Assembly (NCBI GenBank): GCA_030831315.1
Contig: JAURLI010000017.1
Location: 1 to 43,263, forward strand
Direction: 5' to 3'
Length of the DNA stretch: 43,263 nucleotides
DNA from: Alphaproteobacteria bacterium
GTDB taxonomy: Bacteria > Pseudomonadota > Alphaproteobacteria > SMXQ01
Made by a program: the position numbers and the translations under genes. Shown in pieces: positions 4,091 through 8,385 of the stretch (the first letter of the stretch is position 1; each line of letters starts with the position of its first letter). The notes under the pieces are model-generated. The model worked only from the letters and a program-made list of their open reading frames with translations, had not been told where the DNA came from and did not search any database.

Positions 4091-7000
4091 CTAGATTTCC
4101 CGCACGGCGACGACGCCCGGCAGCGCCCGCAGTTCCATGACGGCCACCGCCCCTACGGCGAAACGCCCGGGCAGAGCCAGTTCCACCGTCTCCCCGGGGG
4201 CGATATCGAGGATCAGGCTGACCTCGCCCTTGCCCCGCGGCGCCCCGGCGATGATATCGCGCACCTGGTCGAGGACCGAGGCTTCCGCCACCTCGACCTT
4301 GAGACCGGGGGCGGCATTGGCCACCGCGACATCGAGCGCCACCATGTCCTGGACCGTGAGGCGGTAGCCCTCCCCCTCGCGCCGCGCCTCGCAGGTGGCA
4401 AGCACGTTCTTGCCCGCCTCCAGCAGGTCGCGGGCCTTGCCCAGCACTTCCGAAAACACGGTGACTTCGAACATGCCCGACGCATCCGACATCTGGACGA
4501 AGGCGAAGCGGTTGCCGCGCGCAGACGTGCGCTCCTTCTTCGAAATCACCGTGCCAGCGACTTTCAGGCGCGTGGCCTCGTGAGTGCCTGCGCGGTCAAG
4601 GATGGAGGATGACGAAACCACCTTGAGCCGTTCCAGCCGCGAGCCGTAGGCATCGAGCGGGTGCGCCGACAGGTAGAAGCCGATGGCCTGGAACTCGTGA
4701 TTGAGTTTTTCCATCACCGACCACGGCTTCACGGACTTGAGCGGCTGGTTGCCCGCAGCCCCTTCGTCCGGGCCACCGAACAGGCTGGCCTGCCCGCTTT
4801 CGCGTTCGCTCGCCGCCGCACTCGCGTGCTGGGTCATCAACTCGACATTGCCGAACACCACGGCACGGTCAGCCAGTACCGAATCGAAGGCGCCCGCCGC
4901 GGCGAGACTTTCCAACTGGCGCTTGTTGACGACCTTGGAATCGCAACGCACAGCGAAGTCGAAAAGATCCTTGAACGGGCCGCTCTGGTTCCACTCGGCC
5001 ACCAGCGCGTCCATCGCCGCCTTGCCCACGCCCTTGACCGCGCCGAGCGCGTAGCGGATCGCCTTGGCGCCGCCCTCGTCGCGCTCCACAGTGAAGACAG
5101 AATCGGAACGGTTCACATCGGGCGCCAGAAGCGCGATATCCAGGCGCTGCAATTCCTGGCGGAACACGTTGAGCTTGTCGGTATTGCCCATGTCCAGCGT
5201 CATCGAGGCGGCAAGGAATTCGACCGGGTAATTGGCCTTGAGCCATGCCGTCTGATAGGCGATCAGCGCGTAGGCGGCCGCATGGGACTTGTTGAAGCCG
5301 TAGCCCGCGAATTTTTCGACCTGTTCGAAGATGTGGCCCGCCTTGCGCTTGTCGACGCCGCGCGCCACCGCGCCATCAACGAACTTGGAGCGCTCGGCAT
5401 CCATCTCGGACTTGATCTTCTTGCCCATGGCGCGGCGCAGGATGTCGGCGCCGCCGAGCGAATAGCCCGACAGCTCCTGCGCGATCTGCATGACCTGTTC
5501 CTGGTAGATCATGACGCCGAAGGTTTCCTTGAGAATGCCTTCCAGCGACGGATGCAGGTAGTCGGGCTTTTCGCGTTCGTGCTTGCAGGCGACGTAGCGC
5601 GGAATGTTGTCCATCGGGCCCGGACGGTAGAGTGCCACCAGCGCGATGATGTCCTCGAAAACGTCGGGCCTGAGGTTGCGCAGGACGTCGCGCATGCCCG
5701 AGCTTTCCAACTGGAACACGCCGGTGGTGTCGCCCTTGGCCATCATGGCGTAGGTGGGTGCATCGTCGAGCGGCAGGGTAGCGAGATCAAGCGCCCCCTG
5801 CCCCTGCGCCTTGCGGTCCTCATTGACCAGCTTCATCGCAATGGCCAGCACCGTCAGCGTCTTGAGGCCGAGGAAGTCGAACTTCACTAGCCCGGCCGCT
5901 TCCACGTATTTCATGTTGAACTCGGTCACCGGCATGTCCGAGCGCGGATCGCGGTAGAGCGGCACCAGCCGGTCGAGCGGGCGGTCGCCGATGACGACGC
6001 CCGCCGCATGGGTCGAGGCGTGGCGATAGAGGCCTTCCAGATGAAGGGCGATCTCCATCAGCTTGGCGACGGTTTCGTCCTCGTCGCGCATCTGCTGCAA
6101 CAAGGGCTCGCCGGCGATGGCATCCTTCAGGGTGACGGGGCTCGCCGGGTTGTTCGGCACCAGCTTGCAGATGCGGTCGACCTGCCCGTAGGGCATGCCG
6201 AGCACCCGCCCGACGTCGCGCAGCACGGCACGGGCCTGAAGCTTTCCGAAGGTGATGATCTGGGCGACGCGGTCGCGGCCGTAACGGTCCTGGACGTAGC
6301 GGATCACCTCGTCGCGCCGGTCCTGGCAGAAGTCGACGTCGAAGTCAGGCATCGAGATGCGTTCGGGATTGAGAAAGCGCTCGAACAGCAGCTTGAAGCG
6401 CAAAGGGTCAAGGTCGGTGATCAGCAGCGACCACGCCACCACGGAACCGGCGCCCGAACCGCGTCCGGGTCCCACGGGAATGCCCTGCTTTTTTGCCCAG
6501 CGGATGAAGTCCGAAACGATCAGGAAGTAGCCGGGAAAGCCCATCTGCTCGATCACGCCAAGCTCGTAATCAAGGCGTTCGCGGTAGGGCTTTGCCGCCG
6601 CCTCGCGCGCGGCTTCGTCCATGTCGGGAGTGAGCACATGGGCGGCAATCCGCGCCTCGAGCCCGGCGTGGGCTTCCTCGCGCAGCACCGCCGCCTCGCT
6701 CGCGGTGCGCCCCTCGCCTTCCTCCTTGGTGAAGGGCGGCAGGATCGGCTTGCGTTCGGGACTGGCGAAGGCGCAACGGCGGGCAATCACCAGCGTATTG
6801 GCCACGGCCTCGGGCAGGTCGGCGAACAGGGCTTTCATTTCCGCAGGTGTGCGGAAACGATGATTGGGTGTCAGGCGTCTGCGGTCGGTATCGGAAACGA
6901 GTGCGCCTTCGGCGATAGCGAGCAAGGCGTCGTGCGCCTCGAACATGTCCTCGGAAGCGAAGAACGCTTCATTGGTGGCGACCAGCGGCAGGTCATGGGC

Positions 7001-7597
7001 ATAGGCGAAGTCGATCATCTGCGTCTCGATGCGGTCCTCGGCCTCCATGCCGTGGCGCATGAGTTCGACATAGAGACGGCCTTGGAACATGTGCTTGAGC
7101 CGGTCGAGCGCCGCTTCCGCCTCGCTGATACGATTTTCCAGCAGCAAGCGGCCAACGGTGCCCTCGGGCCCCGCGGTCAGCGCGATCAGGCCTTCGGTAC
7201 GCCCCTCGATGCGGTCCCAGGAGACCTGCGCGGTGCGCCCGGCCTCGGTCTCGAGATGCGCCTCGCTCACCAGCGCGATCAGGTTGTCGTAACCCGCCGC
7301 GTCCTGCACCAGCAGCACCAGCTTGTCGGGCTCGGGTGCCCGCCCGATCTGACCGCGGGCCGGTTCCGGCCCCTCGCGGGTAACGGCCAGCTCGCAGCCG
7401 ATGATCGGCTGCACGCCCGCCTTCATCATCGCCATTGAAAATTCGAGGGCGCCAAAAAGATTGCGCGTGTCGGTGACCGCCACCGCCGGCATCGCGTGGC
7501 GGCGGCAGAGTTCGGCGAGTGCCGGAATCTTGATCGCGCCTTCGAGCAGCGAATAGGCGCTGTGCACCCTCAGATGGACGAAATCGGCATGGGCCAT
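4091..7597 (-). CDS. dnaE: DNA polymerase III alpha subunit (DnaE)
   Basis: Replicative polymerase catalytic subunit of the DNA polymerase III holoenzyme. It has 1168 residues, normal for DnaE1. The N-terminal PHP domain starts at [17 protein letters not shown] (6-22); it lacks the metal-binding His pattern of active PHP domains. The palm carries [10 protein letters not shown] (377-386) and PDFDVDF (417-423) with D420 and D422 as catalytic aspartates. The fingers follow, then the helix-hairpin-helix region, and an OB fold (about 990-1070) with [20 protein letters not shown]. It ends the proS-lolC/E-lolD-dnaE series, 107 bases after lolD; that gap holds an inverted pair of DnaA boxes. Not the error-prone DnaE2, given length and the family pattern. 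Confidence 0.97.
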
Positions 7598-7671
7598 GAC
7601 GCGGCGCTCTCCCTCGCGTCATTGATTCCACGTATGAGCGGCAGGAGCAACATCTGGCGGATCAGGGCGGG

Positions 7672-7699
7672 GCTTATCCACAGGATATTGTGGATAAGC
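7672..7699. promoter_or_regulatory. inverted pair of perfect DnaA boxes between lolD and dnaE
   Basis: TTATCCACA at 7674-7682 and its reverse complement TGTGGATAA at 7689-7697 are separated by GGATAT. Both match the strongest DnaA box. The symmetry extends to 11-base arms (GCTTATCCACA). It lies 5 bases past the lolD stop and about 75 bases upstream of dnaE. No T-run follows on the lolD strand, so it does not look like an intrinsic terminator. A role in DnaA control of dnaE or in DnaA titration is inference. Confidence 0.6.
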
Positions 7700-7704
7700 G
7701 GGCT

Positions 7705-8385
7705 TCAGGCGTCGCGGATGCGGCCGTCCTCGATGGTCACGATACGGTCCATGCGCCGCGCCAGATCGGGGTTGTGGGTAGCGATCAGCGCCGCGCCGCT
7801 GGTATTGCGGAGGGCATCGACGAAAACGCCGAAGACCTGGTCCGCCGTGGCGGGGTCGAGATTGCCGGTGGGCTCGTCGGCAAGCAGGAGGGCCGGCTCG
7901 TTGGCAAGGGCGCGCGCGATGGCGACGCGCTGCTGCTCGCCGCCCGACAGCTGCGCGGGGCGATGGGTGGCGCGGGCTTCGAGCCCGACCAGCGCCAGCA
8001 GCTGCATTGCCCGTGCACGCGCGGCGACGCGTTCCCTGCCCGCGATCATCTGGGGGAGGACGATATTCTCCTCGGCCGAGAATTCGGGCAGCAGGTGATG
8101 GAACTGGTAGACGAAGCCGAGGTTGTGGCGACGCAGGCGCGTGCGCTCGGCATCCCCGGCGGCAGTAACGTCGGTCCCCGCCAGCAGGATGCGGCCGCCG
8201 TCGGCCTGTTCGAGCAGCCCCGCGATGTGCAGAAGCGTCGATTTGCCCGAGCCCGAAGGCCCGACGAGCGCGACCATTTCACCGGGTGCGATGGAAAGAT
8301 CGCAGCCCTTCAATACTTCCAACCGCGTCCCCGCATCGGAAAAAGAGCGGGTGATGCCGTCGAGCTGGAAGATCGCCTCACTCAT
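7705..8385 (-). CDS. lolD: lipoprotein-releasing ABC transporter ATPase LolD
   Basis: ATPase that powers extraction of mature lipoproteins from the inner membrane for LolA. The 226-residue protein has Walker A GPSGSGKST near 43-51, the signature LSGGEQQRVAIARAL, Walker B LLADEPTGNLD and the switch His in ATHN. The start MSEAIFQLDG overlaps the end of the permease gene by 8 bases, so the two are translationally coupled; the upstream open frame is not used. The MacB/FtsE/LolD subfamily is told from its partner gene. Confidence 0.95.
   Translation of the reverse strand: MSEAIFQLDGITRSFSDAGTRLEVLKGCDLSIAPGEMVALVGPSGSGKSTLLHIAGLLEQADGGRILLAGTDVTAAGDAERTRLRRHNLGFVYQFHHLLPEFSAEENIVLPQMIAGRERVAARARAMQLLALVGLEARATHRPAQLSGGEQQRVAIARALANEPALLLADEPTGNLDPATADQVFGVFVDALRNTSGAALIATHNPDLARRMDRIVTIEDGRIRDA

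Follow-up and report, generated by a model that had tools for sequence, protein, structure and literature searches.

An inverted DnaA-box pair upstream of dnaE

What are two perfect DnaA boxes, set face to face, doing in front of a gene for the replicative polymerase? The window, which is the whole stretch of 43,263 nucleotides of alphaproteobacterial DNA that was analysed, reads GCTTATCCACA-GGATAT-TGTGGATAAGC at positions 7672-7699. This inverted repeat, assigned as a whole to neither strand, has arms at 7672-7682 and 7689-7699 that are perfectly complementary over 11 nt, and its 6-nt spacer is also the 6-bp gap between the boxes. The distal box (7689-7697, minus strand) reads TTATCCACA in the direction of dnaE, and the proximal box (7674-7682, plus strand) is inverted, reading TGTGGATAA in the same direction. 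The inner end of the repeat lies 75 bp from the dnaE start codon (7597), and its outer side 6 bp from the lolD stop codon (7705). Our analysis thus confirms the arrangement described in an earlier, sequence-only reading: two perfect facing boxes with a six-base gap, in an 11-base inverted repeat about 75 bases upstream of dnaE.

The dnaE gene (4091-7597, minus strand) encodes the DNA polymerase III alpha subunit (NF004226, 1481 bits, above the cut-off). Its neighbour (7705-8385, minus strand, start taken from the coding-score call) is a lolD-like ABC ATPase gene whose best family, LolD (TIGR02211), scores 251 bits, below the cut-off of 307.75. This neighbour lies outside the element, and its adjacency to dnaE varies among relatives.

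The boxes at 7674 and 7689 are the only perfect ones in the window, and four boxes with at most one mismatch were counted against 2.6 expected; taken alone, the box count in the window is unremarkable. The genome-wide count that the earlier reading had proposed gave 18 perfect boxes (nine per strand; 2.7 Mb in 89 contigs), compared with 12 matches to the reversed control pattern. The arrangement TTATCCACA-N3-14-TGTGGATAA occurs a single time in the genome, at dnaE, and its reversed control not at all. By our own arithmetic (nine boxes per strand, 2.7 Mb), about 4e-4 such pairs are expected by chance per genome. The claim that a pair of this kind is improbable by chance therefore stands, with conservation in relatives as the decisive point, and a chance origin is ruled out by genome-wide uniqueness and conservation together.

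Conservation within the order

Eleven genomes from five genera of the order were sampled, and the dnaE upstream region could be read in ten. A DnaA box with at most one mismatch is found in nine of these ten regions (0.25 for permuted motifs) and a perfect box in seven (0.003 for permuted motifs); when decayed pairs are included, all ten readable genomes carry boxes or their remnants. Both boxes are perfect in G000, G004 and G005, with the same gap of 6 bp. The distal box is perfect (9/9) and its proximal partner decayed in G003, G006, G008 and G009, a single box with one mismatch is present in each of G001 and G002, and the closest relative, G010, has a degenerate pair whose boxes carry two and three mismatches. 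The conservation check in relatives suggested at the outset thus came out in favour of a box kept upstream of dnaE.

An inverted repeat in this position could instead form a hairpin or terminator in the RNA at the 3' end of lolD, and the arms do fold well as RNA (z -2.5), only 6 bp past the lolD stop codon. However, there is no T-run and no terminator was called, and the G+C-rich stem followed by a T-run that characterises an intrinsic terminator is not found. Arm pairing falls to 6-8 of 11 in G003, G006, G008 and G009, where the distal box is nevertheless retained at 9/9, and neither the outer GC/GC pairs nor the hairpin is conserved in the order. Because box identity outlasts arm pairing, an RNA structure is disfavoured. 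It had been proposed that a hairpin kept while the boxes were lost would argue against a DnaA site; the opposite is observed. Moreover, the element persists in G004 and G005, although we could recognise no lolD-like gene upstream of the dnaE pair in either; the site therefore goes with dnaE. We regard a role at the lolD 3' end as extremely improbable.

A predicted promoter at a fixed distance from the boxes

In all ten readable genomes of the order, TTGC stands 20-22 nt before TGGAAT or TGGATT; the full block reads TGGAATC in nine of them and TGGATTA in G003. On the alphaproteobacterial housekeeping consensus, we take TTGC and TGGAATC to be the dnaE promoter, with a predicted -35 element TTGCTC at 7645-7650 and a predicted -10 block TGGAATC at 7624-7630, both on the minus strand. 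Transcription would then start at about 7617, and the predicted centres of the proximal and distal boxes, at about -61 and -76, would be appropriate for a class-I activator. Measured from its first base, the distal box is 65-68 nt upstream of TGGAAT in eight genomes of the order, across which the distance from TGGAAT to the start codon varies from 33 to 76 nt and the neighbouring gene also changes. The locus thus has two features of DnaA-regulated promoters, consensus boxes in the promoter region and a fixed distance from box to promoter, the promoter itself being predicted.

The sequence-only reading had put forward two roles for the pair, coupling of dnaE expression to DnaA and titration of DnaA. 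Coupling is favoured by the sequence evidence, in that a box is conserved, its distance is fixed to the predicted promoter and not to lolD or the ATG, and it is enriched throughout the class (see below). Titration, in which the boxes would merely sequester DnaA and the nearby promoter would be incidental, draws some support from consensus, high-affinity boxes that are scarce in the genome, but it fares less well: there are only two boxes, and sequestration would need no fixed distance to a promoter while the flanking genes and the distance to the ATG shift. A datA-like locus has several clustered boxes with no tie to a promoter, in contrast to the two promoter-locked boxes found here, and we consider titration very improbable.

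The -10-like block also contains GAATC, a GANTC methylation site (7624-7628), in nine of ten genomes of the order. The genome encodes a RAMA-domain protein (CcrM-like), and no GcrA match was found in it.

Distribution across the Alphaproteobacteria

We collected dnaE upstream regions from 79 named loci and a class-wide draw, giving 175 non-redundant regions with the order excluded, and counted boxes within 150 bp, allowing one mismatch, against 300 permuted motifs. Such a box is present in 51 of the 175 regions, whereas the permuted motifs average 2.8 and reach at most 28, the highest value belonging to the box shifted by one base. A perfect box is present in 18 of 175 (permuted mean 0.1). A -10-like block could be recognised in 37 of the 175 loci; 18 of these have a box 48-58 nt upstream of it, and every other 10-nt bin holds 0-3. 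At the named loci, boxes occur at 1.75/kb in the dnaE upstream regions and at 0.092/kb in the remaining sequence, which is mostly coding DNA and thus not a like-for-like comparison.

Several distant lineages also have the inverted pair with its 6-bp gap: with the box as anchor, a gap of 6 is the peak spacing of inverted partners outside the order (L041, G193, G074 and G262). Most lineages keep a single 9-mer, in either orientation. Rows with and without a box are intermingled in the dnaE tree (at least 16-19 changes), pair-bearing lineages are scattered, and losses are frequent, for example all through Magnetospirillum. Many Rhodospirillales dnaE upstream regions have no box (Magnetospirillum, Kiloniella, Nisaea and Thalassobaculum). 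Given these boxless lineages and the degenerate pair of G010, the link between DnaA and dnaE is not essential in the class.

These distributions bear on what kind of protein reads the site. The 24-bp palindrome would suit a dimeric factor, and a weak spacer pattern, ANATNN, is common to the paired loci, as might be expected of an operator for an unknown dimeric repressor. Most lineages, however, have the single 9-mer in either orientation, and tandem 9-mers occur upstream of nrdJ; a protein that reads the 9-mer as a monomer, such as DnaA, therefore fits better, and a dimeric repressor appears quite improbable. An NrdR box, considered on account of the CACAATATCCTGTG core, was rejected: the ACA-to-TGT spacing is 6 here and 10 in NrdR boxes.

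The distribution also bears on the direction of control. DnaA could act at these boxes as a repressor or homeostatic switch and reduce dnaE transcription, perhaps when bound to ATP once initiation has occurred; such an effect is reported for E. coli nrdAB at high DnaA-ATP. Site and nucleotide decide between activation and repression (PMC10532879, PMC3193534), and in L020, L043 and L045 the box lies 28 nt from TGGAAT and directly adjoins the -35 region, where bound DnaA could repress. In the genome studied and in most others, by contrast, the boxes are placed further upstream than the -35 element and leave the core promoter free, as is typical of activators. We therefore consider repression unlikely.

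One could tentatively see here an ancient alphaproteobacterial module in which a DnaA site roughly 50-58 nt before the dnaE -10 element, arranged in part of the class as an inverted pair with a gap of 6 bp, would link the replicative polymerase directly to the initiator, although we find this doubtful. Lineages that lack GcrA, through which DnaA is relayed in Caulobacter, may be the main ones to retain the module. Box presence is associated with GcrA status in an uncorrected Fisher test (p 0.0013), but the anticorrelation loses significance in a test that allows for kinship, and we did not retain it.

DnaA and other box-bearing sites in the genome

The genome encodes DnaA (at C4). Its domain IV aligns with that of E. 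coli (1J1V) at 3.5e-31, with RPRQ and GGRDHTTV unchanged, and 8BTG was also aligned. By analogy with the known E. coli structure, these two stretches would be the ones that read the box; as expected of a genome with a DnaA regulon, the box-reading domain is conserved.

Two other replication-related genes have boxes upstream. The class II ribonucleotide reductase gene nrdJ (L013/L126-L134, contig C79 at about 50851) has a perfect DnaA box 254 bp upstream. Its boxes are in tandem, 3 bp apart and 12 bp from start to start, and tandem boxes are found at -254 to -301 in all eight genomes of the order with enough upstream sequence. The primase gene dnaG (L007, contig C42 at about 16142) has a perfect box about 100 bp upstream. 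This box is retained in G010 and G007 but not in five further order genomes read; G003 has two one-mismatch boxes, and the rest have none. Since nrdJ and dnaG carry boxes, those of nrdJ in an E. coli-type layout, a replication-centred DnaA regulon would be the simplest reading.

Boxes were also noted at sites of other kinds. An intergenic region of about 1.1 kb, extending from a CitE-like lyase gene to a SelT/W-like gene near sdhC (L014/L015, contig C80 7163-8106; L099 in G003), has DnaA boxes at either end and, next to a double box, an AT-rich stretch; it occupies the same place in another genus. This region is a candidate replication origin. An inverted pair located by pattern in G003 (L099) proved to lie here, between citE and sdhC and away from dnaE, and was set aside. 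A conserved stretch of about 180 nt (L014 at about 1520-1700 in G000; L099 in G003, reverse strand) follows immediately on a DnaA box and has long complementary ends, GGGGCGTCAGGC and CCTGACGCCCC. Rfam gave no match to it with E values up to 1, and it is possibly a novel non-coding RNA. Perfect boxes also stand upstream of each of two class II DAHP-synthase-like genes (L001, identified by family scan, and L018, by an N-terminus match). Finally, L002 (1500-1815) has two perfect inverted boxes 38 bp apart, closely followed by a tandem glycine riboswitch and then a GcvT-like gene.

Probable control of dnaE by DnaA

We consider it probable (at roughly 0.75) that the inverted pair is a DnaA operator in the dnaE promoter, most likely an activating one. 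One DnaA molecule would sit on each of the two head-to-head 9-mers, which have a centre-to-centre distance of 15 bp and lie immediately before the -35 element. Placed at about -61 and -76, DnaA would most likely aid RNA polymerase in the manner of a class-I activator, and dnaE transcription would thereby track the level or activity of DnaA. This reading draws on the presence and conservation of the boxes, the constant spacing between them and a conserved promoter-like block, their enrichment in the class and the E. coli-like box-reading domain of DnaA; DnaA binding, the promoter, its start site and activation over repression are what we infer.

Polymerase III alpha is usually regarded as being produced in step with growth. 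If the reading is correct, the protein that fires the origin would also set the supply of the replicative polymerase, and testable mutations follow for any alphaproteobacterium that keeps the dnaE site.

Comparison with known systems

In Caulobacter and E. coli, replisome and nucleotide genes are already known to be under the control of DnaA. In Caulobacter crescentus, DnaA activates gcrA, ftsZ, podJ and nrdB, as well as replisome and nucleotide genes as a group, and its regulon includes gcrA, ftsZ, podJ, nrdB, hdaA and mipZ (PMC3193534, PMC4287350). The dnaE site resembles that system in involving an alphaproteobacterial DnaA and one or a few boxes in a promoter; DnaA activates there, whereas the link proposed here comes from sequence. 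It differs in that dnaE does not appear among the direct targets given in those Caulobacter papers (PMC3193534, PMC4287350). A further difference from Caulobacter is that GcrA has no match in the four order genomes listed by our search.

In E. coli, DnaA favours boxes in tandem with 2-3 bp between them, and double boxes lie upstream of nrdAB, polA and purH (PMC11317965). The dnaE pair is similar in being a set of paired boxes upstream of a replication or nucleotide gene, but it is inverted with a 6-bp gap and thus departs from the tandem E. coli layout. That layout is matched by the nrdJ sites, and E. coli-like double boxes therefore exist in the same order as the dnaE site. In Borrelia burgdorferi, DnaA is reported to control a polymerase III subunit gene at the dnaX-ebfC promoter (PMC9879097); that case concerns another subunit, phylum and site layout. 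We found no published report of DnaA sites at dnaE in the open-access literature, and for this reason the site appears new among known DnaA-controlled genes: on the sequence evidence, dnaE would be a new DnaA-linked gene with an unusual inverted 6-bp geometry, within a known type of DnaA control.
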